Shown here in pieces: positions 22,711 to 48,069 of a stretch of DNA of 64,000 nt. The stretch comes from Microbacterium sp. CH12i (lineage in GTDB: Bacteria; Actinomycetota; Actinomycetes; Actinomycetales; Microbacteriaceae): positions 1-64,000 of the forward strand of contig NZ_JHET01000001.1 of NCBI RefSeq assembly GCF_000685355.1, given 5' to 3'. Below the pieces are notes generated by a model that was not told the origin of the DNA, searched no databases, and was given only the letters and a program-made list of their open reading frames with translations. The first letter of the stretch is position 1; every line of letters starts with the position of its first letter. Position numbers and translations under genes: made by a program.

Positions 22711-22744
22711 TCATATAGGCCACGAATCGCTGTGTTCGCGGACA
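22711..22744 (-). promoter_or_regulatory. Shared 34-bp conjugation promoter, copy 1
   Basis: On the minus strand it begins TGTCCGCGAACAC and ends GGCCTATATGA, exactly 34 bases, as do the copies at 26969, 38151 and 48036. It lies about 64 bases before the GTG start at 22647. TATATG is the likely -10 and TGTCCG the upstream element. Confidence 0.75.
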
Positions 22745-22767
22745 AGAGCGATGCCGATCTGTTGGCG

Positions 22768-23385
22768 TCAGGTGAAGAGCTTCGCTGCGACTGCCGCGAG
22801 GATCGCCGCGGCGACGAGGTAGGGGCCGAAGGGCAGGCGGGTGTCGCGGTCGTGGTGCCGGCGGCGTGCAAGGATCGCCGCGGCGTGCGGGATGGCGAGC
22901 AGGTAGCTGGCGAACAGTGCGTACACCGGCAGCATCCAGCTGAACCAGCCGGTGAGCAGCGCGATCGCGATCAGTAGTTTCACGTCGCCGGCGGCAAGGG
23001 TGCCGAACAGGGCGATGAGAAAGACGGCCGCGACGATGCTGATGGTGGTGACGATGGCTTGGATGAGCAGCTGCCAGGAGCCTGTGGTCATCGCGATCCC
23101 GGCCCAGTAGCCGAGGGTTGCGGCGGCAAGAGGGAAGGTGCCGCGGTTGGGGAGTCGGCGAGTGCGTGCGTCGATGACAGCCAGCGGGATCGCCGCGGCG
23201 GCGAAGAGGATGATCGCGCCCCACTCCCCTGCCTCGGCTCGCTGAAAGGCCGGGAGAAGCGCTGTGAGGGCCACTGAGAGCCCGAACGCGCCCACCAGTG
23301 CTGCCAGGCACAGCAACAGCAGCCGCGGACGCGCGGAGAGCCCCTGAGGGCGCTGCGCGGCCGCGGGCTGCTGTGTGGTCGTCAT
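22768..23385 (-). CDS. Prepilin peptidase, A24 family (TadV/CpaA-like)
   Basis: 205 residues with about six transmembrane helices, from ATG 23385. The two catalytic Asp motifs are present: AVIDARTRRLPNRG (near residue 68) and the G-D-x-K motif in AAGDVKLLIAIAL (near 132). It should remove the leader from the pilin and TadE/G-like proteins encoded at 28.6-30.1 kb, at the inner membrane face. No N-methylase domain, as usual for Tad systems. The start overlaps the stop of the small gene upstream (ATGA). Confidence 0.85.
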   Translation of the reverse strand: MTTTQQPAAAQRPQGLSARPRLLLLCLAALVGAFGLSVALTALLPAFQRAEAGEWGAIILFAAAAIPLAVIDARTRRLPNRGTFPLAAATLGYWAGIAMTTGSWQLLIQAIVTTISIVAAVFLIALFGTLAAGDVKLLIAIALLTGWFSWMLPVYALFASYLLAIPHAAAILARRRHHDRDTRLPFGPYLVAAAILAAVAAKLFT

Positions 23386-23578
23386 CGTTGCGGAGTAACC
23401 CAGACGATGTCCTCGCGAGCGATGAGGGCAGCGATCTCGTCGCGTCTGTGATCGGGGTGACATCGAGGTTGTGGTTGCGCCAGGCCTGAGCCTGGTCAGG
23501 TGACTGCGTGTGCAGCTGGGAAGCTTCCTCACGCCAGGTGAGTGAGCCCCGAACGGTAGGTGCGGTGAGCGTGGTCAT
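23382..23578 (-). pseudogene. Small protein of the pilus operon with an apparent base deletion
   Basis: Starts MTTLTAPTVRGSLTWREEAS (ATG 23578) and runs to HNLDVTP. Adding one C to the four-C run near 23457 continues HRRDEIAALIAREDIVWVTPQ and stops at 23382, overlapping the prepilin peptidase ATG; total 65 residues. Without it the frame runs through the peptidase gene in a shadow frame. Helical, no known domain. It sits between the LysM-BTAD gene (15 bases away) and the peptidase. Confidence 0.55.
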
Positions 23579-23592
23579 GGTGATCTCTCTCG

Positions 23593-26500
23593 TCAGCTGG
23601 CGATCGCGTGACGATGGCGCAGCTGCGTGATGAGTTCCTCGGTCTCCTGCTCCGGCTCGGCGTAGTCGGGGTCGATCTGAGTCAGCGCGTGGGACAGCTG
23701 CGTGACCAGGCGCTCAACGCCGTTGATGTCGCCCGCCATGTGCTCGGCGCGCAGTGCGTCTCGCCAGAAGACCTCGTTGATGGGATCGACCATGCGGCCG
23801 ATCGCTGCTGCCATCCGGGCGTTGCGGGTGTTTCCGTCGCGCAGAGCTCGGGTGGCGAGCTCGTGGGCGGCATCACCGATCTCAGCGATCATGTCCTGTC
23901 GGAGCTTTTCGGACCAGACGTAGTACTTCTCTTTGACACCCGAGATCGGCTGCCCCTTGACGAGGCTGAGAGCGCGGACCAGGTTCTCGGTGGATGCGGT
24001 GGTGGCGTTAGTGCCCACGAGGGCACGCCAGTCGTCCCAGTCGCTCGTGAACGACTCGGTGAGGCTGTAGACGCCACCAGTTGCCGGTACCAGGTAGTTG
24101 TGTCCTGCGGCATCCTTTCCGAGCCAGCGTCGCGCTGCGGTGGTGAGGCGGTTGCGCGAGCCCGTGCCGACTGCAGGATCGTTGCCCGGCCAGAGCGCCT
24201 CGTGCACCTGCTCGGTGCGAGCGTCCGGGTGAGTAGCGATGAATGCGATGAGCTCGATCGCGCGCAGCTGCTGCGAGTTCCACTGCTGCAGATTCTTGGG
24301 TGCCTCTCCCTGCGGGTTGAGAACGGCCACGGGGCCGAGTATCTGCAGGCGTGGCGTCCGGGCGTCGAACAGCGGGGTGATCGAGGCCAGGTGTGTATCG
24401 TCCTCGGCGTCGGGTGTGATCTGGTCATCGAGGGTGATGGAGATCTGCACGGGGGCGTCGGGTGTGGGTACCTGGTCGACGAGGCTCGGGTTCCCGTCGA
24501 CCAGGTGTTCAGTGGGAAGCTCCTCATCGGCTGCAGCCGGTGCGGTCGGGGTTGCATCCGCGGCCGGGGCAGGTTCCGGTGTGGGAGTTTCGTGCTCGAG
24601 CGAAGCGAAGATCTCGTCGAGGCTGACTTCCGCGGATGCTGCAGAATGCTCGATCGCTGGTTCCTCGTTCGCGACGGTGAACAGCGCGAGGATGCGGTTG
24701 TACTCTTCCTGCGTCACGACCTGGGGCGTGAGGGCGAGGCTTGCACCGTCCGTGTCGGGGATCTCGAGCTCAGCGGTGTTGCGGTCGGTCACTCGGAAGT
24801 TCCAGCTGCCGGTCAGGTGGCCGGCAGCGATCGCGGCGATGCCGACGCGCGGAACACGGGTGACGAGCTCGGCGAGCTCTGCCCGTGTCTCTTCGTCGGG
24901 CAGCTGGCCGAGCACGATGATCTCTGGCGTCCAGGACTCCGCGAGGGGGCCGGCTGTGCGGGCCTGCTCGAGGCTTGCAATGCCCGCCTGCTTGAGGGTC
25001 GCGGTAACTTCCTCCGCCTGTGCGCGCAGGTTGTGCAGCAGTGTGTCGATGGTGTCGACGTGACGGACCCGGCCTGAGCCGATCGCCTCGGGCAGACCGG
25101 AGGCGACGCCCACAAGCGTGACCTGCAGGTTCTCAGCCCAGGCGCTGGTGGCAAGCTCGAGCGCGAGTGCCGTGAGCGTTGCCTTCTCGAGTTCCGGGGT
25201 GCCGTCGATGTTGAGCGCTCCGAGCCGCTCGAGGTCAACGAGAAGGTGAGCGTCCGTCTCGTCGTGGCCCAGGGTGACCAGCGCAGGGTACGGCGCCGAG
25301 GGGATGCGCTCGAGCGGGGTGAGATCGTCGAAGCCGATCGACCATGCCATTTCGTCATCGGTGTTCTGGCGGAAGGGAGCCGGCAGCTGGGCAGGCTCGT
25401 CGAGGAAGACCGAGATCTCAGTCTCGGACAGCCGCAGCGCGTACAACGCTGGGAGCGTTGCCCCGGTGTCCTGTGCCCACAGCGCGAGCATCCGCAGCGC
25501 GTGGTCGACGGCTTCCATGCCCTGGGGGTTCTCGACAGCGCGAAGCTCGAGCTCGACGGTGTTGATGTCGTCGCTCGGCAGAGCGATGCGCGTTCCAGGT
25601 TTGCGGTTGCGGCGCTGCTGGATGCGGCGCAGGCCGAGGAAGCCCAGCAGGCCAGCGGCGAGCACTCCCCCGATACCCAGCGTCCGCCAGTCGGTGACGA
25701 TGTCGACCCAATCGCCGCCGGCCGCGGCGTCAGCGTCATCGTCGACGTCGGCGGCTGTGACGTCCTGAGCCGCCGCGGGAGCTTCCTCAGCGGGCATCTC
25801 TTCGCCGCCAGTGACAAATCCGAGCCCGGTTGTCGCATCGCCTTCGGAAGCGACAACCTCGTCGACGGTCGCGCCAGTGTCCGTAGCTGTTGCCTTGTCG
25901 GCATCCACGCCGGAAGCGCCGGGTGCGTTCTCGGCCTCATCGGGCGTGACGAGAGTGTCAGCGGCAGGAGGTGCTGAGACGGGCTCCTGGACGACGGGTG
26001 CGGCTTCGGCAGCGCCAGCCTCGGCCGGGATCACCACGGTCCAGCCGGGGAGGATCAGGTTCGGGTCAGACAGGTGCTGACCATCGGCCTGCGTGATCAG
26101 GCTGGATGCGTCGTAGATCTCGGTGTAGCGCTCTCCCGCCCCCAACTCGTCTTCGGCGATGTCCCAGAGAGTGTCACCCGCGACGATGGTGCGCTCCTCG
26201 TCAGCTTGTGCAGCTGCAGGTGTAGCGTCGGTGGCTGCCGCTGCAGGGAGGGTGAGGATCATGCCCGGGTCGATGCCGCTGCGCTGGCCAACGGTGTACC
26301 CGCCAGGCTGAGGGGTATCGCGGTTGAGCTCGATGATCTCTTCGTACCGATTGCCGTCGCCGAGGTACTGCTGCGCGATCGCCCAGAGGGAGTCCCCGGA
26401 CTGGACGGTGTACGTCTGCGCGGTGCGCTCAGTGCTGGCCGTAGCGGCCGCGACGTCGGGGGTCTCGGTTGCCCGCGTGGTCTCGGTGTGGGTGAGGACG

Positions 26501-26943
26501 CTCGCTGCCACGGTGGAGGGCGCCGTATCGGCGGTGGTGGGCGTTGCAGCCATCGCCGCGGCTGGGGCGAAGATCGCGAGGATCGCAGCGATGAGGACGC
26601 CGGCTGCTTTCTGCTGCAGACCGAAGCCGGGCAGACTCACCCGCTTGGCTCGGCCTCCGCCGGCGGCGATGCGCAGCTGATTCGGGATCTCCGCGATGTA
26701 GCCGATCGCGAAAGTCCCCCATGCGATCCAGGCGATGATCGGGATGACCGTGCCGACAAGGAACTCTCCGCCGTAGTCGGGCATCGTCAGAGCGGCGACG
26801 AGGCGATCCCACGACGGGATCGGGTTGCCAGCTAGGAAGATCAGCGCGGCCGGCAAACCAACCAGGAGCGCTGCAGAGAGAATGAGCGCTCCGAGCCCTT
26901 CGGATACTCGCTTCATGATGATCTCCTCGTTTTCCGGCGTCAA
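23593..26943 (-). CDS. Membrane LysM protein with C-terminal BTAD (AfsR/SARP-like) domain
   Basis: 1116 residues. Order: two N-terminal transmembrane helices (about 15-35 and 55-80), a third near 115-135, Ala/Thr-rich linker, LysM 1 (QTYTVQSGDSLWAIAQQYLG, near 180), LysM 2 (RTIVAGDTLWDIAEDELG, near 250), Pro/Ala/Glu linker, a further helix near 425 (IGGVLAAGLLGFLGLRRIQ), a large cytoplasmic region, then a winged-helix/BTAD unit (RLQILGPVAVL, EALWPGNDPA) from about 860 to the end. Such LysM-BTAD proteins accompany Tad loci in actinobacteria. It might sense cell-wall contact and relay it to the pilus machinery (inference). First gene behind promoter copy 2. Confidence 0.82.
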   Translation of the reverse strand: MTPENEEIIMKRVSEGLGALILSAALLVGLPAALIFLAGNPIPSWDRLVAALTMPDYGGEFLVGTVIPIIAWIAWGTFAIGYIAEIPNQLRIAAGGGRAKRVSLPGFGLQQKAAGVLIAAILAIFAPAAAMAATPTTADTAPSTVAASVLTHTETTRATETPDVAAATASTERTAQTYTVQSGDSLWAIAQQYLGDGNRYEEIIELNRDTPQPGGYTVGQRSGIDPGMILTLPAAAATDATPAAAQADEERTIVAGDTLWDIAEDELGAGERYTEIYDASSLITQADGQHLSDPNLILPGWTVVIPAEAGAAEAAPVVQEPVSAPPAADTLVTPDEAENAPGASGVDADKATATDTGATVDEVVASEGDATTGLGFVTGGEEMPAEEAPAAAQDVTAADVDDDADAAAGGDWVDIVTDWRTLGIGGVLAAGLLGFLGLRRIQQRRNRKPGTRIALPSDDINTVELELRAVENPQGMEAVDHALRMLALWAQDTGATLPALYALRLSETEISVFLDEPAQLPAPFRQNTDDEMAWSIGFDDLTPLERIPSAPYPALVTLGHDETDAHLLVDLERLGALNIDGTPELEKATLTALALELATSAWAENLQVTLVGVASGLPEAIGSGRVRHVDTIDTLLHNLRAQAEEVTATLKQAGIASLEQARTAGPLAESWTPEIIVLGQLPDEETRAELAELVTRVPRVGIAAIAAGHLTGSWNFRVTDRNTAELEIPDTDGASLALTPQVVTQEEYNRILALFTVANEEPAIEHSAASAEVSLDEIFASLEHETPTPEPAPAADATPTAPAAADEELPTEHLVDGNPSLVDQVPTPDAPVQISITLDDQITPDAEDDTHLASITPLFDARTPRLQILGPVAVLNPQGEAPKNLQQWNSQQLRAIELIAFIATHPDARTEQVHEALWPGNDPAVGTGSRNRLTTAARRWLGKDAAGHNYLVPATGGVYSLTESFTSDWDDWRALVGTNATTASTENLVRALSLVKGQPISGVKEKYYVWSEKLRQDMIAEIGDAAHELATRALRDGNTRNARMAAAIGRMVDPINEVFWRDALRAEHMAGDINGVERLVTQLSHALTQIDPDYAEPEQETEELITQLRHRHAIAS

Positions 26944-26968
26944 TGTCCGCGCGATGCGGTCTCTACGT

Positions 26969-27002
26969 CATATAGGCCGCAGATTCCGGTGTTCGCGGAC
27001 AT
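26969..27002 (-). promoter_or_regulatory. Shared 34-bp conjugation promoter, copy 2
   Basis: Minus-strand TGTCCGCGAACAC…GGCCTATATGA, identical in length to the other copies and 26 bases before the start of the LysM-BTAD gene. It lies just after the stop of the preceding operon at 27010, so it restarts transcription inside the pilus locus. Confidence 0.75.
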
Positions 27003-27009: not shown

Positions 27010-28041
27010 TCACCCGCCGTTGTTGCCGTCACTGCCGGATGTTCCGGTGTTGACGGTCTGCAGTTCGTTGACCTCGAGATTTGCCGTGCTCGAGGACGTG
27101 AGATTGACGGTGCCGCTTGCACCACTCAGGGCAGTCCACGTCACAACCCACTGGCTCGTCGCGGTGACGGTGTACCTGTCCCCCGCCTGTGACTGGCTGG
27201 TGCTCTGGTATCGGTAACCGCAGGTCGGTGAGTCAGTGACGCCGTAGCCCGACGTGTAGGCCGTGCCGAGACCTCCGCAGACCTTGGATCCGCCGTCGCC
27301 GGTCGACCAGCGAACGGACGTCACCTTGGCTGTGGCCGTAATTGTCTGCCCACCGAGAGTTGCGGTCTCTGAGTATGGGCCCCAGGTCAGCGGCTGTGGG
27401 TTGTTGACCCAGAACCAGACCGGGATCCCGACGTAGGAGCGGCGGTGTCCCCATGCGGGGTTTACCTCGGGCGCCATGCCGATATCGATCCCGCGGAGTT
27501 GGAACGTCTCGATGAGTTTCATCGCTGCCATGCCTGGGGTATAGACCTTCAATCCCGGTGGGACTGTGTTGGACCAGAAGTAGCTGACGACACCAGCGCC
27601 GAACATCATTGGCTGGATGCACATGTAGTAGCCGGCATCCTGCTTGTAGCTCGGTGGGCGCTGCGGCCAGACGCCGTCAACCATATGCACGTAGCACTGG
27701 CGGTTGTTCGACCAATAGCCCGCCTGGCTGCTGCAGGCGATGGTCGCATAGAACGTCACACCGTTCCCGCCTGTCCAGGCACGGAGATCCTCGGGCTCGT
27801 ATCCGAGGCTGTCAGCCAGATCAGCAGTGATCTCGACCCAGCAGGACGGCGCTCCGGGCGTCCACCCATTTGAGTCAGGGTTCGGGCGCGGGTCTGTCGG
27901 ACGCGAGCTGAGCGTCATGTAGCAGTCGCCGTTCGCGTTGCACCAGAGTCCACCGTCGGCGGATGCGGGCGCTGCAGCGACCAGTGTGCCTGCGATGAGG
28001 GCGATAGCGGCGACGAGTGCGGCGAGGGTGCGTCTCAGCAT
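27010..28041 (-). CDS. Secreted cysteine-containing protein of the Tad pilus locus
   Basis: 343 residues from ATG 28041, after AGGAGA. Sec signal peptide MLRRTLAALVAAIALIAGTL ending AAPASA-DG near residue 29. The mature part has about eight cysteines (WCNANGDCYM, PSCWVEI, IACSS, RQCYVHM, MCIQPM, KVCGG, PTCGY), suggesting disulfides, is rich in aromatics and ends in a Ser/Thr/Gly tail. No membrane anchor. A surface or pilus-tip role is possible given the operon position after TadG and the lipoprotein; the family is known to me only as secreted proteins beside Tad genes. Confidence 0.7.
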   Translation of the reverse strand: MLRRTLAALVAAIALIAGTLVAAAPASADGGLWCNANGDCYMTLSSRPTDPRPNPDSNGWTPGAPSCWVEITADLADSLGYEPEDLRAWTGGNGVTFYATIACSSQAGYWSNNRQCYVHMVDGVWPQRPPSYKQDAGYYMCIQPMMFGAGVVSYFWSNTVPPGLKVYTPGMAAMKLIETFQLRGIDIGMAPEVNPAWGHRRSYVGIPVWFWVNNPQPLTWGPYSETATLGGQTITATAKVTSVRWSTGDGGSKVCGGLGTAYTSGYGVTDSPTCGYRYQSTSQSQAGDRYTVTATSQWVVTWTALSGASGTVNLTSSSTANLEVNELQTVNTGTSGSDGNNGG

Positions 28042-28645
28042 GTCTCTCCTGGGAACTCGATCAAATTCGAGACCAGCCACATCTTCCGATCTGCGTCATA
28101 GGTGACCTGGAACTCGACCTTGTTCCTGTCAAATTCAGGTCGGTACGACGGTGTGCCGTCAGCGGCGGTTATCTGGTAACCCGAGATGTCAAGGCAACCA
28201 GGGAGCAGCACTAGGCCGTTGGCGATGCCGTTGAACTCCTGGCCGTAGGCGGTCTCCTGGTCGAAGACGATGATGCCTTCACTCTTAGCCTGGCCCTCAA
28301 CATTCTTGCCGGCTTCGTTAGCAAGTGGCCCCTTGGCAATACGCTCTGCGTTTCCCCTATATGTCTCGAGTCCCTTGCCCATCGCCAGGTCGTCGTAGCG
28401 CTCAGCGCCGGCGCCGCCGGCTGCATTGATCTCGCTCTGAGCCTGCAGAAGGCGGGTGATGGTGTCTTCGGCTCGGCTGATCGCTTCGGCCTCGTCTGCA
28501 GGCGGGTCGAAAGTGGCGGCCGTGGGCTTGGGCGTTGCGCTCTCGGTGGGTGCTGTTGTTGGGCTGGTCGTTTCGGCAGGGGCGCAGGCGGTCAGCGTCA
28601 GTGCTGCGGCGACGATGCGACGAGTGCGATTCGCTTGATGCTCAT
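28035..28645 (-). pseudogene. Lipoprotein of the pilus operon (break in the signal peptide)
   Basis: ATG 28645 encodes MSIKRIALVA and then stops early. Adding one C near 28614 (GCATC to GCCATC) restores IVAAALTLTACAPAE, a standard lipobox with Cys at about residue 18, and joins the long downstream frame (AEAISRAEDTITRLLQAQSEI … LIEFPGETC), 203 residues in all. After a Pro/Thr linker the domain resembles NTF2-like small lipoproteins. It overlaps the following secreted-protein start. Likely intact in the cell. Confidence 0.65.
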
Positions 28646-28655
28646 GTGGAGGCTC

Positions 28656-29078
28656 CTATTGCGTGATGATCTCAGCGGTGGCGCTTGCTTCGGCCGGGAG
28701 GCGTGTGACGCCGACGATGGAAATGAACTTGGTGTCGTATGAGGTTTTCACAGTGACGCGGATCTCGTTACCTGTGACCGTGACCGCTCCGGTCATGCCG
28801 GAAGTCTCGATGTAGTCGATCGCTGCGATCCGTGCCCGGTGGTTGTCGAGGCTGATGCCGCCGTTGGCGATGACTTCTGAGGCGACGGCGTTGGCTGCTG
28901 CACGGCTGGCCCCGGAGGCGATCGCTTGGGCGTTCTCGTTCGCTTGGATCTTGCCGGCGCCGTCGACGACGAGGCCGATGACGAGGACGAGGACGGGGAC
29001 GAAGACGACGAACATAGGGGTGATTGATCCGTGCTCGTCGTTGTGGAGCTTGTGGATGATGCGGCGGATGGTGTTCAT
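28656..29078 (-). CDS. TadG/TadE-like pseudopilin
   Basis: 140 residues. Short basic leader (MNTIRRIIHKLHNDEHGSITP) then a hydrophobic helix (MFVVFVPVLVLVIGLVVDG, residues about 22-40), the layout of TadG-like proteins with prepilin-type processing after the HGS region. The soluble part is a small beta-rich domain. Third of three consecutive TadE/G genes; 2 bases from its upstream neighbour. Probably a minor pilin or assembly factor in the cell envelope. Confidence 0.78.
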   Translation of the reverse strand: MNTIRRIIHKLHNDEHGSITPMFVVFVPVLVLVIGLVVDGAGKIQANENAQAIASGASRAAANAVASEVIANGGISLDNHRARIAAIDYIETSGMTGAVTVTGNEIRVTVKTSYDTKFISIVGVTRLPAEASATAEIITQ

Positions 29079-29080
29079 GG

Positions 29081-29527
29081 TCAGCCTCGTTCCCGGTAGG
29101 CGTCGACGGGTGACGTGGCGGTGGAGCTCATGGTGCGGTTGCCAGGGATGCCAGGGAGGGAGATGTCAGAGAGGTTCACGTTGCAGTGAACACTGGTGGT
29201 GACTTCACCGGTGGTTCCGAGCGGGGTGTTGAGTCCGCTGATGTCGATGTCGACGGTGAGGGTGAGGCATGCGATGCCGGCGTGGTTCATCGCGCGCTGC
29301 GCAGCCTGCTTAGCGGCTGTGGTGGCCGTGCCGGCGTCGCGGGACAGGGATGCTGCGCGGGCGGCGGCGAATGATGCGCTCTGCGTGGCGTTGTCAGCGA
29401 GGGCTGTGCGGCCGGCAGCGACGAGGACGAGGATGAGCATCGCGATGACAGGCGCGATGATGACGATCTCGGCGGCGTTGGATCCACGCTCATCAGAGAA
29501 GAGCCGGCGTCGGATTCGGTTGATCAT
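29081..29527 (-). CDS. TadE-like pseudopilin
   Basis: 148 residues from ATG 29527, which overlaps the stop of the preceding gene (ATGA). N-terminus MINRIRRRLFSDERGSNAAEIVII with the conserved G-S-N-A-A-E, the Glu being the key residue of TadE/pilin N-termini, followed by the helix VIIAPVIAMLILVLVAAGR. One cysteine pair (IACLTL, VHCNV). A minor pilin of the Tad pilus; cleaved by the A24 peptidase encoded at 22768-23385. Confidence 0.82.
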   Translation of the reverse strand: MINRIRRRLFSDERGSNAAEIVIIAPVIAMLILVLVAAGRTALADNATQSASFAAARAASLSRDAGTATTAAKQAAQRAMNHAGIACLTLTVDIDISGLNTPLGTTGEVTTSVHCNVNLSDISLPGIPGNRTMSSTATSPVDAYRERG

Positions 29528-29940
29528 GGCACCCACCGTTCGATGGGGCCGGTGACGGTCTTGGTGACGGTCGTGTTCACGCCGGGCAGCAGTCCGGGCG
29601 TGGTGGCTGTGACACTGGCTGTGACTTCGGTGCCGTTGCGAGTGACCGTCACAGTGACGTCGGTGAGCATCCCACCGGTCTGCTCGGCGGTGGTGCTGCC
29701 GGCGTTGACGCCGTCAGCTGTAGTCGCCCCGTACAGACGTGCGGACTCGTAAGCGTTGACGGCTGCAGCCTGGACAAGGTTGGTGCCGTGATACCAGAGG
29801 CCACCCTGGACGAGGCCGAGGATGAGCAGCAGCAGTACGGGGAGAACGATTGCGGTTTCGGCTGTCTCGAAGCCGTGCTCGTCCCTCATCACTCGCCGGA
29901 ACGAGTGATGGAGACGAGCGCGGATCGAAGACATGGCCAT
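29524..29940 (-). CDS. TadE-like pseudopilin
   Basis: 138 residues from ATG 29940 (ATG 29934 is an alternative). Leader MAMSSIRARLHHSFRRVMRDEHG, then FETAETAIVLPVLLLLILGLVQGG: the G-F-E-T-A-E motif and helix are typical of TadE pilins, with cleavage expected after the Gly. The C-terminal domain is Thr/Val-rich (TDVTVTVTRNGTEVTASVTAT). First of the three minor pilin genes, directly after the putative major pilin. Confidence 0.84.
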   Translation of the reverse strand: MAMSSIRARLHHSFRRVMRDEHGFETAETAIVLPVLLLLILGLVQGGLWYHGTNLVQAAAVNAYESARLYGATTADGVNAGSTTAEQTGGMLTDVTVTVTRNGTEVTASVTATTPGLLPGVNTTVTKTVTGPIERWVP

Positions 29941-29944
29941 GAGG

Positions 29945-30145
29945 TCAGTTACTGGGAAGCAGCGCGATCTGACCGTTGACGAATGCCGTGATGCCGGCGA
30001 TCGCTGCAGCCGCGAGAATGACAGCGCCGACCGTGAGGAAGATCTTCTCCGCGGTCTCGAGACCATCTTCGGGCGTTTCCTTGAGGTCGCGGTAGCGAGC
30101 CTTGGTGGACTCGATGGCTACGGTGAGGCGTTCTGCGATGGTCAT
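29945..30145 (-). CDS. Putative Flp-type pilin subunit
   Basis: 66 residues: hydrophilic leader MTIAERLTVAIESTKARYRDLK, then ETAEKIFLTVGAVILAAAAIAGITAFVNG, one hydrophobic helix preceded by a Glu as in Flp pilins, and a short tail. Length and position (between TadC and the TadE genes) fit the major pilin, although the sequence lacks the usual G-x-T-x-x-E-Y motif, so it is a diverged or alternative small membrane component. A ~100-base gap upstream may hold a separate promoter for abundant expression. Confidence 0.65.
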   Translation of the reverse strand: MTIAERLTVAIESTKARYRDLKETPEDGLETAEKIFLTVGAVILAAAAIAGITAFVNGQIALLPSN

Positions 30146-30248
30146 GTTGTTCTCGCTTCCTTGGTGGTGGGTTGTGCGGTTTTTCGGTGTGAGTTAACTA
30201 CGTGCGGAGGAGGGTAGCGAAGCCCTGTGACGGACTATGCCGCTGTCG

Positions 30249-31130
30249 CTAGACGGAGAGGAGGTTGAGCATGAGCGGGGTGATGATGATCCCGACGTAG
30301 ACGAACAATGTCGTGGCCAGAGGCATCTGCATCCGTTCGCTCGCGCTATTTGCCTTCTCGTGCTCCTCAGCGAGGAGCTTGTGCCGGAGGGTTTTTCCCC
30401 TCGATCTGAGTGTCTCATATATCGAGGCTCCTTCCTCCCCTGATAGGCGGACAATCTTGGCAACGTCGGCGAGATCTGGCACGTCGATCTCTTGTGAGAG
30501 GGCGTGCAGCGCGTCCCAGGGGGCGACGCCTGCGTAGCGTGCGCGGGTGAGTTCCTGCCGGATGCGGAGGAATACCCAGCTGCGACCGACTGCTGCGGCT
30601 GTCTCGAGCGCTCGGGCTGCGGTGGCGCCGCGTTTGCGTTCAGCTGCGACCATTTCGAGGTAGACGGCGACAGCACGGGTGAACTCGCTACGGGCATCGT
30701 CCGCCTTCTTGCGGATGTCCTGGTCGACGCTCACCCATAGCCAGAACGCGATTGGCAGCCCGAGCAGACCGGGGATGTAGAACGGCATGAACCCGATCGC
30801 CTGAGCGAAGAGTCCGAGCACGAGCGGGGAGAGCAGCCCGATAAGGGAGAGGAGGGTCTTGTCGTAGTAGTACTTGTCGACGGACATTCCGATTAGTCGG
30901 AGATCCGTGGTGGGCACTTTGAGCCAGGAGCGGTTGGGCAGGTGCTCTGACATCCATGATCCGACGCGATGCTGCATGCTGTCATCGCCCGGTGCGTGGA
31001 CGGTGATGGTTGTTTCGTGGAGCCGGTCGAGGGTTGCAGACAGGTGTGCCTGACGTGGGATGAGTGCGCTGACGATCGTGGCGACGCCGAGGCCGAGGAT
31101 CAGACCGGGCACGAGTGCGAACAGGTTCAT
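30249..31130 (-). CDS. tadC: TadC-like inner-membrane platform protein (T2SF family)
   Basis: 293 residues. Transmembrane helices near the N-terminus, two in the middle (LLSLIGLLSPLVLGLFAQAIGFMPFYI, about 95-140) and one at the C-terminus (TTLFVYVGIIITPLMLNLL). The helical T2SF core includes ARALETAAAVGRSW and KIVRLSGEEGASIYETLRSRGKTLR, typical of the family. With TadB it forms the membrane base that couples the TadA ATPase to pilin assembly. Start overlaps the tadB stop (ATGA). Confidence 0.85.
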   Translation of the reverse strand: MNLFALVPGLILGLGVATIVSALIPRQAHLSATLDRLHETTITVHAPGDDSMQHRVGSWMSEHLPNRSWLKVPTTDLRLIGMSVDKYYYDKTLLSLIGLLSPLVLGLFAQAIGFMPFYIPGLLGLPIAFWLWVSVDQDIRKKADDARSEFTRAVAVYLEMVAAERKRGATAARALETAAAVGRSWVFLRIRQELTRARYAGVAPWDALHALSQEIDVPDLADVAKIVRLSGEEGASIYETLRSRGKTLRHKLLAEEHEKANSASERMQMPLATTLFVYVGIIITPLMLNLLSV

Positions 31131-33645: not shown

Positions 33646-33647
33646 GG

Positions 33648-34445: not shown

Positions 34446-34450
34446 CTGGG

Positions 34451-35146: not shown

Positions 35147-35149
35147 GGG

Positions 35150-37924: not shown

Positions 37925-38150
37925 GAAATGGCCCTTCGTCGCTACGTCGGTATGACGTGGGCCACGTTCCTCAGACACCCAGGGTCAACGTCTGGATAAG
38001 CCAGGCGGTCTCGCGAAATGGGCTTTGGTCGCGGGCGAAGGTGCCGGTAGTAGGTGCGGGATCAGTCCCCTGGAAAACACCTGGTCAGCCGCATTTCAAG
38101 GACTGCCGCTACCTGTCCGCAATATTCGCGCAAGAAATCTTCGCCGGCTG

Positions 38151-38184
38151 TGTCCGGGAATGGAGGATTCCGAGGCCTATATGA
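38151..38184 (+). promoter_or_regulatory. Shared 34-bp conjugation promoter, copy 3
   Basis: TGTCCGGGAA … GGCCTATATGA, 34 bases, the most diverged copy in its centre. It precedes the type IV secretion operon; the first start is GTG 38236. Confidence 0.75.
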
Positions 38185-38235: not shown

Positions 38236-38457
38236 GTGGCAGATGACAGCTTCGATGACCAGACCTGGGAGAGCTTCAAGCCCGATGCTGCCCGTGCTAT
38301 TCGAGCGACGCAGGAGTTCGAGGACGCGGTAGCTCGTACCCTCGATCGACCTTTCGACACCCAGACCTATGGCGGTGTGGAATCGGCACTCGAGGAGCTT
38401 CGCGCGGCTGCACCAGCAGCGGTGCGCGTCTCCCGGCTGACTGCGGCGGGTGCGTGA
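38236..38457 (+). CDS. Small hypothetical first gene of the conjugation operon
   Basis: 73 residues from GTG 38236 with GGAAGGACCGGGA upstream. Acidic helical protein (MADDSFDDQTWESFKPDAARAI, DAVARTLDRPF). No membrane segment or motif known to me. Its stop overlaps the start of the TcpC-like gene (TGATG), tying it to the secretion operon. Confidence 0.6.
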   Translation: MADDSFDDQTWESFKPDAARAIRATQEFEDAVARTLDRPFDTQTYGGVESALEELRAAAPAAVRVSRLTAAGA

Positions 38458-40311: not shown

Positions 40312-42834
40312 ATGCGTATTCCCGCCGCGTCATTCGCCGGACACCTGATGTGGACTCGCACCGGAACGATCTGGGCGACATGGCGTCTACAGGGGCTTCC
40401 TCACGGATATGGGACGGAAGAACTGCAGTACCTCGTGCTCGGTCAGCACCAGGCGCTCTTCCAGTCGCTGCGCGGGGAGGCATTGCTGATCGGCTTGTGT
40501 GCCACGACCGACCCTGTCGACATCGTCGACAAGATGCTCGCCGGCGTCGACATCCGAGAGCAGCCCATCTGGGCAGAGGAGTGCGCGCTGACTTTGGACT
40601 CCCTCGAGGAGATCTCTTTGGGTGAGCGTGCGTTCTGGCTGGCCGTACCACTGGCTGCCGGCAATTGGCGTACACGATCGCGGGCTACCGTCCGTGCGGG
40701 CGTCGAGCAGTTTCGGGAGCAGCTGGCATTGCCGAGGATCGTTCCCTCACCGGCAGAGGTCGCATCTGCGATGGTCGCGGCGAAGGAGATCGAGAACCGA
40801 ATCCCCGCAGACTTCAACGCACGCCCTTCCACTGTCGCCGAGCAGGTATGGATGGCGCTTCACTCGCAGCACCGCGGGTTGAATATAGATAGCTCGGTTC
40901 CCGAGACTGACGCGCTCGGCGGGATCGCCGAGGTTCCTGCCACACAGCTGCCCACCGCAATGCCGAACCCGTGGCTCGACGAGAGTGGCCAGTCGGACCT
41001 ATCACCGTCAGAACTCAAGCGGTTTCTGCCCTTCAATCGCCGCTACCTCAAGGTGCAGAGCCCGCATTCTGAGGCACCCAGTTATCAGGTCTTGCAGGCC
41101 GTTGTCGGCGGCCCTAAGGGGGGCTGGCTGATGCCCGGCGTTGAGTGGATCTCCCGCGTTGAGCAGTACGAGCTCGACGTCGACTGGGCTATCCGTCTCA
41201 CCGTGACTAGTGCCGAGGCGGTGAAGCGCCGCAACAAGCGTGCTGAGGAGCAGCTGCTCGACCAGGTCGATCAGCAATCAGGAACGCTCGCAATCACCGG
41301 TAGTGGATCGGATCTCGCTCAAGTCGCTGAATCCCTCGCGGCCTATCACGCCTCGCTCAACACCAGCGACAAGGAGGTCGAGGTTCAAGCGACCGTCATC
41401 TACGCCGTAGGTGGACCCACACCGGAGATCGCGCAGGCCCGTGCACGTTACGTCGCCGCAGACTACAAGGCCAGCGACTTCCTCCTCGAGGCGCCTGTTG
41501 GCGGGCAGGAAGAGCTCTGGTGGGGGATGCAGCCCGGCGTGCCCACGTCCCGGATCGTACGCGACTTGGCACAGATCACGACGGGCCGAGAATTCGCATC
41601 TGGACTGCCGATCGTCAGCAACACCCTTGGTGATGACCGCGGCATCCGCCTTGGCGACAACGTCACGACCGGCCGGCACACGCCGATCCTCATCGACCTG
41701 CACGGGAACATTCGCGCTGACTCCTCTGGAAGCTTCGGCGTGGTCGCGGAACTCGGTGCAGGCAAGAGCGTGCTGCTCAAGTCGGTGGCCGGCGACGTGC
41801 TGGATCGTGGCGGCCGGATCGTCGCACTGGACCGCACCGTAGCGCGAGAATACGCGACATTCGCGGAGTCGCTCAACAGCAAGGTGGTGCGGGTCGTGGA
41901 CCTCCTCGAGCCTGAATGGTCCCTGGACCCGCTGCGAGTACTTGGCCCTCGAAAGGGGGCACGCATGGTGCAGTCACTGTTCGCTCTGATGCTCGGCATC
42001 CAGACGATGGACACTCGCGGGGTGCAGCTGTCTGGGCTGCTCGAAGCCGATTACATGGAAACAAACAAGATCAACAGCCTTGGCACGCTGATGACGCACC
42101 TGTCGCAGCTGGGGGAGCAGAATCCCATCGCAGCCGAATTGCTCGGCCTCATCCGCGTGGTGGCCAGCAAAGACTTCGGCGCCGTCCTGTTCGATGCAGC
42201 CATTCCTGCCCTGGATCTCGCCGCCGACGCGATCGTGTTCACCACACGCGGCCTGAACTTGCCAGACCGTTCCGAGGTTGAGAACGAGCACCTGTTCAAG
42301 CAGATGCCGATCGAGAAGATCGTCGGCCGAGCGATGTACGCCATGCTCGCGCAGCTGACCCGCGAGGTGTGCTTCTTGGAGCGCGGACGATTCGCCCTTG
42401 CGATCTTCGACGAGGCGCACCACATCACTGCCTCACGGGACGGCGAAGCCGAACTGCAGACATTCTTCCGCGACGGCCGCAAGCACGACGCCGCGGCCGC
42501 GATCGGATCTCACGACCCCCACGACTTCGGCGACGAGGTCACTCGAGGACTGATCCCCATCCGCTTCGTTATGCGCCAGCGGGACGAGACACTCGCCAAG
42601 CGCGCTCTGGAATGGCTGGGCTTGCCCGCAGACCAGAACATGGTGCGCGAGGTCATGACGAATCTGAGCCCGATCGGCGCTGACCGGAAGGTGCCCGTCG
42701 AGCGTCGCGGCGAGGGGATCATGCGTGATGTCCGTGGCCGTTACGGGAAGTTTCGCAAGACGCTCCCCGCCCGCCCCGAGCGCCGTCAGGCGGTGCTCTC
42801 CACTCCATCCACTTCGACCGTGGAGATTTCATGA
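40312..42834 (+). CDS. VirB4/TcpF-type conjugation ATPase
   Basis: 840 residues. N-terminal VirB4 domain to about residue 400, then the AAA+ motor: Walker A in VVAELGAGKSVLLK (near 480), RIVALDRTVAREYATF, Walker B FALAIFDEAHHI (near 694) and an arginine-finger region RFVMRQRDETLAKRAL. It energises the secretion channel. Its last codons overlap the next start by 4 bases. Complete and free of frame breaks, so the core of the transfer machine looks functional. Confidence 0.88.
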   Translation: MRIPAASFAGHLMWTRTGTIWATWRLQGLPHGYGTEELQYLVLGQHQALFQSLRGEALLIGLCATTDPVDIVDKMLAGVDIREQPIWAEECALTLDSLEEISLGERAFWLAVPLAAGNWRTRSRATVRAGVEQFREQLALPRIVPSPAEVASAMVAAKEIENRIPADFNARPSTVAEQVWMALHSQHRGLNIDSSVPETDALGGIAEVPATQLPTAMPNPWLDESGQSDLSPSELKRFLPFNRRYLKVQSPHSEAPSYQVLQAVVGGPKGGWLMPGVEWISRVEQYELDVDWAIRLTVTSAEAVKRRNKRAEEQLLDQVDQQSGTLAITGSGSDLAQVAESLAAYHASLNTSDKEVEVQATVIYAVGGPTPEIAQARARYVAADYKASDFLLEAPVGGQEELWWGMQPGVPTSRIVRDLAQITTGREFASGLPIVSNTLGDDRGIRLGDNVTTGRHTPILIDLHGNIRADSSGSFGVVAELGAGKSVLLKSVAGDVLDRGGRIVALDRTVAREYATFAESLNSKVVRVVDLLEPEWSLDPLRVLGPRKGARMVQSLFALMLGIQTMDTRGVQLSGLLEADYMETNKINSLGTLMTHLSQLGEQNPIAAELLGLIRVVASKDFGAVLFDAAIPALDLAADAIVFTTRGLNLPDRSEVENEHLFKQMPIEKIVGRAMYAMLAQLTREVCFLERGRFALAIFDEAHHITASRDGEAELQTFFRDGRKHDAAAAIGSHDPHDFGDEVTRGLIPIRFVMRQRDETLAKRALEWLGLPADQNMVREVMTNLSPIGADRKVPVERRGEGIMRDVRGRYGKFRKTLPARPERRQAVLSTPSTSTVEIS

Positions 42835-44783
42835 TCACGTACTACGCCGATGCCTTCCGCACGATGGGCGGGTGGATCTGGCGAGCTCGCATCTGGGCAC
42901 ACCAGCACCCTGCACGCGCGCGCGTCCTCGCGGTGGTCTTGCTGGTCGGGTACTTCGTCTTCGCCCAGGCGAGGGCAGCACACGCGGCCGGTTTCCTCCC
43001 CGATGGTGTCGACTACACCGATTCTCACGGCAACGCCTTCTCGCAGTACACGACTATCGACATCGACGCGGGTGATGTGTGGAGCCCCGGAAAGGTCGTC
43101 GTCAACTTCGTCGTGCAGCTGCTCTGGTCGATCCAGTACTTCGCAACAGGCGTGATCCTCTGGCTGTTCGACTTCCTACTCAGCTTCGAGTGGGTGGCAT
43201 GGTTGTCTACCCCGTTCAACACCCTCGCAGTGTGGCTGCAGGAACAACTCGGTGAGCTCAACTGGATCCCCTTCGCCCTGATGATCAGCGCACTCGTCGG
43301 CGGCCTCGCGCTATTCGTCGGCCGAGTCTCGGGCGGTCTCTGGGAAATGCTCATCGCGGCCGTCATCGCGGTGCTGGCAGTTGGTGTCCTCGCCAACCCC
43401 GTTGCATCCCTGACTGCTGCAGGCGGCGTTCTGGATAAGGCGCAGGATTTCGGTGGGCAGTTGGCCACATCGATCGTCGTGGATGCTGATGCACAAACAG
43501 ATGACACGTCATTGTCGGCGTCCGTGAATGCCACGCTCATGGATGTCTTCGTGCGGATCCCGTTTCAGGTGATCTCCTACGCGCAGGTGCTGCCAGATCA
43601 GTGCCAAGGATCGTTCGACACCTTTATCCAGACCGGCGAGCCGCAAGCGTCGTTACGTGATTGCGCCCCGGAGGCTGCGGTCTTCGCCCACGATAACCCT
43701 GGCGGAATGAACATCCTCAACGCGATGGTCAACGGTGGTGGTGTCACCGTCATGTTCATCTTTGGGATGGTGATCGCTGCGCTGCTGATGATCTCTGTGG
43801 TGTTCTTCCTGATCGCCGCGATCAAGGCGATGCTCATGGTCTACCTCGCGATCCTCCCGATCAACCGCGAGCCGCTGTGGAAGGCGCTCTCGGACATGTA
43901 CATGGGAGCGATCAGCCTCATGGTGATGACAGTCTGCTTAGCGCTCTATCTCAAACTCACTACCTGGATCATGGGCCAGACCGGCGGGCTGCCGCATCAG
44001 TTGCGGATGGTGTTCCTGATCCTCTTCCTGATCATTGTGATCATCCTGATCTTCCGCGCCCGCCGGGCAACACTGCGCGCCGGCCACGGAGTCGCCCAGC
44101 ACTTGAGCAAGCTCGGCCTCGGCATGCGTCCGATGCCGAAGGACTCCAACGCACTACTCAAGATGAGCGCGATCGCGAGCATGGCGAACACCGCATCCGG
44201 TCTACTCAAACGGCTCCCCTCGAAGAGCCCCGGGCTCGAGGCCAAGCCGCTGCCACAGACGCCGGTTCCGGAAGAGCCCATCAACCTCACACAAGTACGT
44301 ACCCCTGGCTCGCCCCCAGGAGGCTCCGGAGGCAGCGCAGGGGCTCCCAGGGCAGCAATCGGTGCAACCGGTGCGCACAGGGCTCTCGGTGCCGCTGGTG
44401 CAGCCACAGCGGTTGCCAGGGGTGCCGCCACAGGCGGAGTGGCGGGTGCCGCGACCGCGGGTGCGGTGGTCGTCGGGAAAGCGGCTGCGAGGAAGGCAAC
44501 AGGTAAGGCGGCCTCTGCAGCCACGAACGCCCTAGTACGTCGTACGACGCCACAGGCAGCCCCGGTTGATGTCGGCGAGCTCAAAGTGGTCAAGAGCGCC
44601 GAGTCCACCCCAAGCCGGATCGAGGTCGATTCCCGAGGCGTGGCTACGGCGCGCCGGAAGACGACGAGCCCGGTCCAGAACATCTCATCTCTGCCTCAAC
44701 GGCCGGTGCAGCGACCCTCAACACGAGCACTCGAGCGACGCCAGCAGCTTGAGGCATACCGACCCAAGGCGCTGGCCAACTGA
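42831..44783 (+). CDS. VirB6/TcpH-like polytopic membrane protein
   Basis: 650 residues. One N-terminal helix (VLAVVLLVGYFVFAQARAAHAAG), a short exposed region, then about six membrane helices between residues 90 and 410 (ALVGGLALFVGR, GVTVMFIFGMVIAALLMISVVFFLIAAIKAMLMVYLAILPI, MVFLILFLIIVIILIF), followed by a ~230-residue cytoplasmic tail rich in Ala, Gly and basic residues. This is the VirB6-type pore subunit of Gram-positive type IV systems. Overlaps both neighbours, so it belongs firmly to the operon. Confidence 0.8.
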   Translation: MITYYADAFRTMGGWIWRARIWAHQHPARARVLAVVLLVGYFVFAQARAAHAAGFLPDGVDYTDSHGNAFSQYTTIDIDAGDVWSPGKVVVNFVVQLLWSIQYFATGVILWLFDFLLSFEWVAWLSTPFNTLAVWLQEQLGELNWIPFALMISALVGGLALFVGRVSGGLWEMLIAAVIAVLAVGVLANPVASLTAAGGVLDKAQDFGGQLATSIVVDADAQTDDTSLSASVNATLMDVFVRIPFQVISYAQVLPDQCQGSFDTFIQTGEPQASLRDCAPEAAVFAHDNPGGMNILNAMVNGGGVTVMFIFGMVIAALLMISVVFFLIAAIKAMLMVYLAILPINREPLWKALSDMYMGAISLMVMTVCLALYLKLTTWIMGQTGGLPHQLRMVFLILFLIIVIILIFRARRATLRAGHGVAQHLSKLGLGMRPMPKDSNALLKMSAIASMANTASGLLKRLPSKSPGLEAKPLPQTPVPEEPINLTQVRTPGSPPGGSGGSAGAPRAAIGATGAHRALGAAGAATAVARGAATGGVAGAATAGAVVVGKAAARKATGKAASAATNALVRRTTPQAAPVDVGELKVVKSAESTPSRIEVDSRGVATARRKTTSPVQNISSLPQRPVQRPSTRALERRQQLEAYRPKALAN

Positions 44784-46045
44784 TGTCCACCGACGCCGTC
44801 GACGAAGAGAGCGGATCGCTCTGGAATAAGCTCCTTGCGATCGGCCTGGTACTCGTAGCGGTGTTCGTGCTTGTGGTCGGTGGATTCTTCGCCGTGTTCA
44901 TGGGCGTTATCGCCGCAGCGGCCGGTGCAGTGGGCGATGAGACCCAGTGCGTGCCGCAGTCGACGACGGGGTGGGCGGGTATTTCATCTGAGGCATCAGC
45001 CGCCGCGGCACCTGACTCGATGGAGATCCCGTACGGGAAAAACGGAACAGTGACACTCGACGCAAAGCAACTAGCGATCGCGTCGCGGATCATCGCCATT
45101 GGCAGCCAGCTGCGTGTTTCAGACAAGGGGATCAAGGTCGCGTTCATGACTGCCCTGCAGGAATCACGCCTGAGAATGCTGGCGAGCTCGCGAGTACCGG
45201 AGTCCCTCGACTACCCCCACGACGGGGTCGGCAGTGACCACGACAGCGTGAATCCCTTCCAGCAACGCCCCTCGTCTGGATGGGGCAGCGTTGCAGAACT
45301 CATGAATCTCGACTACTCGATAAAGGCATTCTTCGGCGGTCCAGACGGACCCAACGGCGGCTCCCCACGCGGTTTGCTCGATGTCAGCGGCTGGGAGAGC
45401 ATGCATCCGGGCGAAGCCGCGCAGACAGTGCAAGTGAGTGCGTTCCCGGATGCGTACGACAAGTGGGAGGCGGCGGCCGAGCAACTGATGAGCACGCTGG
45501 GACCTGGCGTTGCCGACTGCAGCGGGGGTGTCACCGGAGAGATCGCGCTGCCTCTGCAGTCGGACTACAACCAAACCAGCGACTACGGCCCTCGCAACGC
45601 GGGAGTCGCTGGTGCTTCCAGCTGGCACGCCGCGATCGACTTGCAGCGCTGGCCGGCCCCGTGCGGAGATCCGGTCTACGCGATCTTGCCCGGGAAGGTC
45701 GTTCTTTCGAGTGCCCTTTGGCTGTCGATCGAGCACGCAGACGGCTACGTCGTGTCCTACCTGCACATGTTCAAATCGCAGCGTCTCGTCGACGTCGGCG
45801 ACACCGTTGAGGCTGGCCAGCAGGTCGGGGTCACAGGCAACGTGCAGCCGTCGAGCGGATGCCACCTAGATCTTCGGATCAATGTCGAGAACAACACCAA
45901 CCCGGATGTAGCCGGACTGATCCTCTCGCAGAATGAGACGCGGATCCCACCCGCGCGAGACTCCTGGAACTACAACTACGTCAACCCGGAAGACTTCTTC
46001 GCCCTCTGGGGAGTCGAGCTTTGCCCCGCCGGCACTTGTAAATAG
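44783..46045 (+). CDS. Cell-wall hydrolase of the conjugation system (muramidase-like plus M23 peptidase)
   Basis: 420 residues. One N-terminal membrane helix (LLAIGLVLVAVFVLVVGGFFAVFMG), a muramidase-like domain with the candidate catalytic Glu in FMTALQESRLRML (near residue 128), then an M23/LytM domain from about 255. The Zn site has H-x-x-x-D in SSWHAAIDLQ (near 281) but the usual H-x-H is H-L-D in GCHLDLRI (near 363), so the last His ligand is replaced by Asp. It should open peptidoglycan for the channel, in the VirB1/TcpG position. Last core gene of the operon. Confidence 0.82.
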   Translation: MSTDAVDEESGSLWNKLLAIGLVLVAVFVLVVGGFFAVFMGVIAAAAGAVGDETQCVPQSTTGWAGISSEASAAAAPDSMEIPYGKNGTVTLDAKQLAIASRIIAIGSQLRVSDKGIKVAFMTALQESRLRMLASSRVPESLDYPHDGVGSDHDSVNPFQQRPSSGWGSVAELMNLDYSIKAFFGGPDGPNGGSPRGLLDVSGWESMHPGEAAQTVQVSAFPDAYDKWEAAAEQLMSTLGPGVADCSGGVTGEIALPLQSDYNQTSDYGPRNAGVAGASSWHAAIDLQRWPAPCGDPVYAILPGKVVLSSALWLSIEHADGYVVSYLHMFKSQRLVDVGDTVEAGQQVGVTGNVQPSSGCHLDLRINVENNTNPDVAGLILSQNETRIPPARDSWNYNYVNPEDFFALWGVELCPAGTCK

Positions 46046-46732: not shown

Positions 46733-47653
46733 GGGCGTGTTGCTAAATCCTGTTCCGCTTGGCGGGCGATCCTTGAAGCGTGTCGCGAGATGTCATCACA
46801 GACGAGGCGTGGGAGCTGATCAAGGACGTGTTTCCGCCGGCGAGGACGCGTGGTCGCCCTCCCGTCGATCGACGCATGGTTGTCGAGGCGACCGCGTGGC
46901 GGTTCCGGACGGGGACGGCGTGGCGTGATCTGCCCGAGCGGTTCGGGAACTGGAACACGATGTACAAGAACTTCCGTCGCTGGGCGGCCGACGGTGTCTG
47001 GGAAGACCTCCTCACCCACGTGCAGAAGCGGGCGTCTCTGCAGGGCGAGATCGACTGGGTCGTGTCGGTGGACTCCTCGATCGCGCGTGTCCACCAGCAC
47101 GGCGCGACCCTGCCCCGCGACACGGGGGGCTCCGGCGAACTACAAGAAGTACGGGCCGGAACCTCCTGACCACGCGATCGGCCGGTCACGAGGCGGTTTG
47201 ACGACGAAGATCCACCTCGTCTGCGACGGGCAGGCGCGGGCGTTGGCATTCGTGCTCACGGGCGGGCAGATCGCAGACACCAGCATGTTCACCGACACCC
47301 TCGACGAGATCCACGTCCGTGGCCGAGGCCCTGCACGCACGAGACCCGACCGGGTGCTCGCGGACAAGGGCTACCCGTCAAAGAAGAACCGGGCGTGGCT
47401 GCGCGAGCACGGCATCAAGGCCACGATCCCCGAGCGCGACGACCAGATCGCGCACCGACGCAAGCGACCCGGTCGCCCGATCAACTTCGGCCTCGAGCAG
47501 CAGCAACGCTACAAGGGCCGCAACGTCGTCGAACGATGCTTCAGCTTCATCAAGCAGTGGCGAGGACTCGCGTCACGCTACGACAAGACCGCCACCTCAT
47601 ACGCAGCCGGACTCAACCTCGCCGCAGCACTCCAATGGATATAGCAACACGGC
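46733..47653 (+). mobile_element. IS5-family (IS427-like) insertion sequence
   Basis: 921 bases. Terminal inverted repeats: left GGGCGTGTTGCTAAATCC (46733-46750), right complement GGCCGTGTTGCTATATCC (47636-47653), 3 mismatches. CTA directly repeated at 46730-46732 and 47654-47656 is the target duplication. It sits between the tandem RHH gene and the coupling-protein operon, without breaking a recognisable gene. Confidence 0.92.
46780..47644 (+). CDS. IS5-family transposase in two frames
   Basis: First frame MSRDVITDEAWELIKDVFPP to about 47125, with the catalytic Asp in WVVSVDSSIARVH. The second frame (GAPANYKKYGP, then DRVLADKGYPSKKNR and the Glu region NVVERCFSFIKQWR) continues to 47644. 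The join falls in a six-G run (47124-47129): the second half is in the +1 frame relative to the first. IS427-group elements commonly fuse such frames by programmed slippage, so this need not be damage; one G fewer would also make a single frame. DDE motif complete across the two halves. Confidence 0.88.
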
Positions 47654-47659
47654 CTAGTG

Positions 47660-48030
47660 GGCATGCCACCGCTCATGCTGCACAGCTATAGCGGCAGGTC
47701 AGCGCTACACAACTAGATCCGCGGAATACCGGCAAGTCCGAGGGATCGAGTTGTTCCCTCGATGTCGCGGGTGCTCTAGCTGCGGTGTTGTGAGGATATA
47801 GCGCCCCTGGATATTACTTACAGCTGGGGGAGGTCTGGCCCCGCTCCCGCTTCCGCTGGTCGCTTGGCGGGGCCAGCCTACCACGGGTGTCAAGTGCGGA
47901 GGTGGCGGCGATATTGCGCCGATGTGGTGATGATCTGCGCGCAACACCACATCGGTAGAGCTCCAACTCTCGCGTTGAACACCCTCGATGCCGGGGACAC
48001 CATAAGTGCGTCAGAGAAGGAATCTCCAGA
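47660..48030. other. Intergenic region before the coupling-protein operon
   Basis: About 370 bases with no supported gene. Inverted short words such as GATCGAGTTGTTCCCTCGAT (47745-47764) occur, and the stretch CCACATCGGTAGAGC near 47947 looks promoter-proximal, but I see nothing I can name. Given the neighbours it is one place where an origin of transfer could lie. Confidence 0.4.
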
Positions 48031-48035
48031 GCCTC

Positions 48036-48069
48036 TGTCCGCGAAGACCGATCCGTGCGGCCTATATGA
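48036..48069 (+). promoter_or_regulatory. Shared 34-bp conjugation promoter, copy 4
   Basis: TGTCCGCGAAGACCG … GGCCTATATGA, 34 bases, upstream of the zinc-ribbon / TcpA operon that starts at 48116. Confidence 0.75.

Follow-up and report, generated by a model that had tools for sequence, protein, structure and literature searches.

A predicted element-encoded sigma factor and its co-varying putative promoters ahead of conjugation and Tad pilus operons in Microbacterium and related plasmids

In the case of the Group 3 sigma factors FliA and WhiG, one dedicated sigma factor drives a surface-structure regulon from promoters with a -10 core of GCCGATAA and a -35 element of TAAA. Alternative sigma factors are also encoded on plasmids: SigN (ZpdN) of the Bacillus subtilis plasmid pBS32 has been tied to cell death after DNA damage (PMC6751061, PMC10601692), and on the Cutibacterium acnes plasmid pIMPLE-HL096PA1 the Sigma-70-family gene PAGK_2357, which is next to the Tad locus together with an anti-sigma gene, has been suggested to control that locus (PMC3666418). 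This suggestion rests on gene position, with no promoter motif in the relevant passages of PMC3666418, and for a C. acnes plasmid the link between pili and conjugation apparatus is called unclear in the part of PMC5696575 that deals with it. A further relevant system is pAL1, the linear plasmid of Arthrobacter Rue61a, which is called conjugative (PMC3534580). Here we describe a transfer element in the first 64,000 nucleotides of contig NZ_JHET01000001.1 of Microbacterium sp. CH12i (hereafter the window), which has the same gene order as pAL1 around a sigma-like gene. Four 34-bp blocks in the window are very probably copies of one -35/-10-like element, a predicted promoter for the sigma factor that the same element encodes (Table 1).

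Four exact copies of the pattern TGTCCG-N17-GGCCTATATGA are present in the window, and the count remained four when up to three mismatches were allowed, against a shuffled expectation of 0.15; 0/100 shuffles gave four. A preliminary description of this DNA had reported four 34-bp blocks with conserved ends and a variable centre, 26-70 bases ahead of four operons. All four are present and exact, the second lying at 26968-27001 and not at 26969-27002. The ends are as described, but the centre is partly fixed, with CGAA or GGAA at positions 7-10 in 4/4 copies, and the conserved core is accordingly longer than stated (TGTCCG[C/G]GAA, 13 free bases, GGCCTATATGA). Measured to start codons with a ribosome-binding site, the distances are 63, 51, 51 and 46 nt for sites 1-4, within the range given (for site 3 the count runs to the open reading frame at 38236; at site 4 the next open reading frame, of 110 residues, starts at 48116, and similarity to a relative's FtsK starts only at 48448). 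Pfam bore out the names TcpC, VirB4, FtsK/SpoIIIE, LysM and Peptidase_A24 for the downstream genes, but not 'BTAD', 'zinc-ribbon' or 'VirB6'.

The layout of the block is that of a -35/-10 promoter, with TGTCCGcGAA followed at a single spacing by the -10 element GGCCTATA, which occasionally has C at its first two places. In 507,621 bases of class A and class B sequence (the classes are defined below), half-sites were paired with a gap of 15 in 47/47 cases. An A seven bases past TATA, retained in 35/46 distinct sites, is the likely transcription start point, and the end of the -10 element tracks the clade, being TGA, TGG or TGC here and CC[T/C/G] or CAG in class B. At -10 the core GCCTATA is similar to the GCCGATAA of FliA and WhiG; their TAAA at -35 is, however, absent, and no sequence relation to FliA or WhiG was found. 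Two elements at fixed spacing, set before operons and confined to the replicon of their regulator, were found here, as in a sigma-dependent promoter class.

The preliminary description had asked whether the block might be common throughout the host chromosome, and it is not: only 7 sites were found at up to two mismatches in the whole genome (3.35 Mb, 21 contigs), and none with the reversed pattern. The exact 3' half, GGCCTATATGA, has five genome occurrences, 5/5 of them paired with the 5' half. Among 299 genomes of the host's family the sigma profile was found in four and the class A motif in two, namely the host's own genome and one other with a single two-mismatch match. A host-wide promoter is ruled out by the 7 sites genome-wide and the 2/299 genomes matching. 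The sites beyond the window lie one each on the small contigs C18, C17 and C14. That on C14 stands upstream of a GmrSD_C/HNH nuclease gene, and because the same nuclease type lies downstream of a site on the transfer-gene contigs of G299 and G307, the three small contigs are probably pieces of the same element. Past the window, contig C1 carries metabolic genes, so that the element may here be either a plasmid or integrated.

A search of related elements recovered the motif in 12 of the 16 genomes with a sigma homologue, at 91 sites in total (3-12 each; one match with the reversed control). Of these, 71 are on the sigma contig, 18 on other contigs with at least two sites and 2 are single, those off the sigma contig being mainly on other small contigs; in G305, G306 and G313 the sigma contig was assigned by the TcpC-site sequence. 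Eight of the 12 (G302-G306, G312-G314) are not independent, as they have the same TcpC-site sequence. In the remaining 4/16 genomes the sigma is the most distant of the set, and the corresponding operons have another motif. The four sites have counterparts with different centres on plasmid A of Microbacterium sp. No. 7 (No. 7 plasmid A), upstream of TcpC, FtsK and LysM and following the peptidase gene; a fifth site stands ahead of the pilin-position gene. With 7 sites in the host genome and 3-12 in 12 relatives, the regulon is larger than the four operons first proposed. Contigs from bins labelled Acidobacteria, Croceicoccus and Verrucomicrobia (L019, L020, L023) have the same sites as Microbacterium strains, and L019 and L020 also the same sigma; these are probably binning contamination.

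A regulator-like gene adjoins the TcpC operon in 8/8 annotated plasmids examined. In the window this is the sigma-like gene, of whose ~256-residue product the 37155-37700 protein, the natural candidate of the preliminary description, is the C-terminal part. That candidacy gains from the predicted fold of a relative's protein, which matches sigma factors and includes the region 2 fold (core binding, -10 recognition) of the Sigma-70 family, and from a motif that changes with the sigma clade; the gene, however, reaches ~37924 and its frame is broken. For a C-terminal region 4 helix-turn-helix, Sigma70_r4_2 matched 28/41 members with E-values of at most 1 (best 6e-4), other helix-turn-helix families matching about equally, and Pfam and PDB sequence searches gave the protein no name. 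P0001 and the 113-residue P0040 were excluded from alignment A2, and L029, whose gene is not cleanly readable at the coordinates used, from alignments A2 and A3. No viral or phage relative was found (21 stretches fitted a pattern, 0 were confirmed, and a further search gave no match). We consider the sigma reading well supported by the predicted fold and the comparison of sequences. Of the original proposal, the computations support an element-limited class of promoters with the sigma-like gene as their natural predicted reader.

Where the sigma differs the motif differs, at the same operons. Sites of class A (the host's own, G299, No. 7 plasmid A, G307) end in TATATG and those of class B (G300, G301, G303 and, by inspection, pYJNG) in TATAC, while class C (No. 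7 plasmid B, L028-L031) reads TGTCCGAT-N16-ACC.ATG. In more distant plasmids the TcpC/VirB4 and FtsK operons are preceded by separate motifs: TGTCGA-N19-CCCCT in M. sediminis, GTCTAA-N17-CCCTTG in pAL1, GGGACAT-N15-GCCTT in pLMA7 and TGTCACAG-N18-TCCTCT in a Rhodococcus linear plasmid. Three places on Curtobacterium pC1c, including TcpC and FtsK, have TGTCCG-N17-CACCTACTC, and an N18 version stands before its pilin-position gene. When classes were cross-checked by plasmid there was one off-diagonal match, class C in G307; the diagonal holds by construction, because the patterns were drawn from the same sequences.

The host genome itself holds a second sigma of the same family on contig C16 (76 kb), at G000:C16:60669-61385, beside TcpC/VirB4, Tad and FtsK genes. 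This contig has four exact TGTCGGT-N18-CCCCTT sites and one with a single mismatch, and the class A motif is absent from it; four more one-mismatch matches elsewhere in the genome are in line with chance (reversed control, 1). By comparison with No. 7 plasmid A proteins, sites stand before TcpC and the SAF-TadA operon and the one-mismatch site before FtsK. Similarly, G120:C3 has four exact TGTCCC-N19-CCCCTT sites, placed before TcpC and SAF-TadA, with a one-mismatch site by the M23/FtsK stretch. Each of the two contigs has two further sites, ahead of unnamed genes. With TGTC set at positions 1-4, positions 26-27 read CC in class A, class C, M. sediminis, pAL1, C16, G120 and the N17 sites of pC1c; the exceptions are the Rhodococcus plasmid, with CC at 25-26, and pLMA7, which is without TGTC. 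We infer from this shared register that the motifs fit one sigma family with drifting specificity.

The distant motifs were sought by counting dyads. A first whole-locus count was overrun by G+C-rich coding repeats and yielded the pAL1 motif nonetheless; limiting the search to upstream regions improved three plasmids. Blind dyad scores, set against the maximum of 25 resampled sets, were 47.9 against 26.4 for M. sediminis, 33.0 against 21.3 for pLMA7 and 28.8 against 21.7 for the Rhodococcus plasmid. Several results are weak points of the sigma-promoter reading. The blind search of upstream regions found nothing for No. 7 plasmid B (L082) or pAL1 (L084), some resampled sets produced chance dyads, and anchored searches from random pieces also reached four exact dyads, as C16 and G120 do. 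In pAL1, 2/4 sites overlap annotated open reading frames, one at a 3' end and one near a 5' end. Lastly, no site stands ahead of the sigma gene in the window, which indicates that the control of this gene itself differs. The C16 and G120 motifs carry weight because of their position before the same operons, their register and their 0 matches in 20 resampled contigs each, and not through the four-match count alone. No motif was found in G066, where the matched genes are the sigma gene and an M23 gene only, and in G234 all known motif classes gave 0.

It could be argued that the block is instead the site of an element-encoded activator over host sigma-A promoters, with TGTCCGcGAA as an operator at -35 and CTATAT or TATATG as the sigma-A -10. 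The preliminary description had named an activator as the alternative, the upstream half is conserved over 10 bases, and the helix-turn-helix profile matches of the family include non-sigma regulators at similar E-values. We nevertheless regard this as unlikely: the sigma-A -10 consensus is TAnnnT and the class B TATACC is without its final T, the -10 half varies between element lineages in a way that a host sigma would not follow, and the regulator-like neighbour of the TcpC operon has a predicted sigma-factor fold. A repressor operator over ordinary promoters, holding the transfer genes off and unrelated to the sigma-like gene, is very improbable; regulons of this type typically place coordinated sites before transfer operons, but the site is no palindrome by inspection, its half-sites are at one spacing, and the sigma gene in the window is not preceded by a site, although no search aimed at a shared repressor was made. 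Most improbable is a non-regulatory repeat dispersed by duplication or recombination, as although the ends are identical and the centre variable, the sites are oriented toward downstream genes within flanks that look unrelated, the corresponding positions of No. 7 plasmid A have different centres, and distant elements have a different sequence at the same operons.

Returning to the sigma-promoter reading, synthesis of the sigma protein would let core RNA polymerase, with this factor bound, initiate transcription from all of the element's sites and so switch on the genes for the TcpC/VirB4 channel and the FtsK-type coupling protein as well as the LysM and prepilin peptidase genes. In relatives the set would also take in the TadA operon or the pilin-position gene, together with a nuclease gene and further genes of the plasmid, and all targets would act as one transfer programme. 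With its own sigma and its own version of the motif, each element lineage could share a cell with others without cross-talk. Given the broken sigma frame in this assembly, it may be that the programme does not run in this genome, or that the break reflects an error of sequencing.

The preliminary description took co-regulation to mean that the pilus and the channel form one transfer machine. In the window, a TcpC/VirB4-type conjugation module (TcpC, VirB4-like ATPase, FtsK-type coupling protein, peptidoglycan hydrolase) accompanies a Tad (type IVc) pilus set (TadA ATPase, two T2SSF proteins, TadE/TadG, prepilin peptidase), TadE scoring marginally below cut-off (22.6 against 22.9 bits). Within this Tad cluster a site stands before just the LysM and prepilin peptidase genes, and the main TadA-containing operon has none of its own in the window. 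In G300, G301, G303, No. 7 plasmid A and pC1c, a site precedes the pilin-position gene; in M. sediminis, C16, G120 and, with two mismatches, pLMA7, it precedes the SAF-TadA operon. Having Tad genes and a VirB4 channel under one motif is thus a recurring feature of the sequences. Such co-regulation makes the one-machine idea testable and is not proof of it.

The element resembles pBS32 in encoding an alternative sigma factor; in contrast to SigN as described in the sources cited above, its predicted targets are the conjugation-channel, coupling-protein and Tad pilus operons of actinobacterial elements, and its motifs vary per element. What it has in common with the case of PAGK_2357 is a sigma gene close to Tad genes on an actinobacterial plasmid. 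There was no Cutibacterium record among the 35 PLSDB matches of the sigma search, and on the 8 plasmids examined none of the genes next to the sigma gene has an anti-sigma annotation, although no search aimed at anti-sigma factors was made. The pAL1 sigma is ~32% identical to P0003. Of the 35 related plasmids, 28 are typed non-mobilizable in PLSDB, and so is pAL1; as pAL1 is called conjugative in the passage concerned (PMC3534580), plasmid typing seems to miss this family. Plasmid sigma factors (SigN) and the suggestion of one controlling a neighbouring plasmid Tad locus (PMC3666418) were already known, the latter being the nearest precedent in the open-access literature searched, where, as far as its accessible passages go, no plasmid sigma regulon driving conjugation is reported in these plasmids. 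Within that literature, a transfer-dedicated sigma with co-diverging private promoters across one plasmid family appears to be new. It offers a cheaply testable handle on what activates a little-studied group of actinobacterial plasmids, bears on the question left open in print for the C. acnes plasmid, and suggests a sequence signature for plasmids that current typing calls non-mobilizable. The roughly ten sigma/promoter pairs, apparently co-diverged within one gene order, form a natural set for the evolution of sigma specificity and are candidate orthogonal promoters.

The leader of the sigma gene, unusually well conserved, keeps TGAGGAACGT in 11 aligned leaders (one change in L028), and a hairpin is predicted over its ribosome-binding site, with stem sequences that differ between lineages. 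Its z-score is -3.1 in the window, -5.9 in L017, -3.8 in L028 and -6.2 in L086, and the hairpin is weak or absent in L016 and L083. It may be a translational gate; as z-scores range from -6.2 to +0.25 over the 11 leaders and the 11-row consensus fold is weak, we treat it as a side observation. More broadly, and with less confidence than we would give an even chance, we propose that one family of actinobacterial conjugative plasmids, linear and circular, uses lineage-private transfer sigma factors, with matching promoters ahead of the conjugation channel, coupling-protein and Tad pilus genes, that insulate co-resident plasmids. In this view the Tad pilus would belong to the machinery of conjugation, and the switch would be whether the sigma mRNA is translated past its leader hairpin.

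Table 1. Features of the transfer element, in window coordinates.
Feature	Position	Strand	Remarks
Site 1, promoter-like, TGTCCGCGAA-N13-GGCCTATATGA	22711..22744	-	Upstream of 190-residue hypothetical gene 22075-22647
A24 prepilin peptidase	22768..23532	-	
LysM protein, first gene past site 2	23593..26916	-	
Site 2	26968..27001	-	Upstream of LysM protein/prepilin peptidase pair; No. 7 plasmid A counterpart L081:10435
Tad-type pilus genes	27010..36429	-	ParA-like, SAF homologue, TadA ATPase, two T2SSF, 66-residue pilin-position gene ('pilin' label by position), TadE, TadG
Sigma-like protein gene	37158..37924	-	Two matches to family profile (residues 1-69 and 68-256)
Conserved sigma-gene leader, predicted hairpin over ribosome-binding site	37925..37978	-	z -3.06 for 37919-37978
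Site 3	38151..38184	+	Upstream of TcpC-VirB4 operon, divergent from sigma gene; counterpart L081:21599
Small first gene of TcpC-VirB4 operon	38236..38457	+	73 residues
TcpC (VirB8-like) conjugation protein	38454..39413	+	Pfam TpcC 1.1e-12
VirB4-like ATPase	40312..42834	+	AAA_10 1e-39; 87% identity to No. 7 plasmid A protein
Large protein in the 'VirB6' position of the preliminary description	42831..44783	+	No Pfam match
M23 peptidase, channel operon	44783..46045	+	
Site 4	48036..48069	+	Upstream of FtsK/SpoIIIE (TcpA-like coupling protein) region; counterpart L081:30637
FtsK/SpoIIIE coupling protein	48448..50552	+	Compared with No. 7 plasmid A, frame changes within 48537-48573

No Rfam family at gathering score and no tRNA was found in the 64-kb window. 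Two frames are broken relative to No. 7 plasmid A, by decay or assembly error: that of the sigma gene, near 37718-37730, which is intact in relatives, and that of FtsK (48537-48573). By eye, the predicted TcpC transcript begins at a short inverted repeat (38187-38206), as it also does in L016, L017, L020 and L027. In pAL1 the sigma gene and the ParA/Tad operon are separated by a BREX defence set (L084 20805-33876). A SIR2_2 protein and a phage-type integrase are encoded in an insertion of the window relative to No. 7 plasmid A, at 51030-60146, ahead of the glutaredoxin gene. Left of the element (11344-21230) there are a further phage-type integrase and, judged by eye from translations only, mercury-resistance-like genes.
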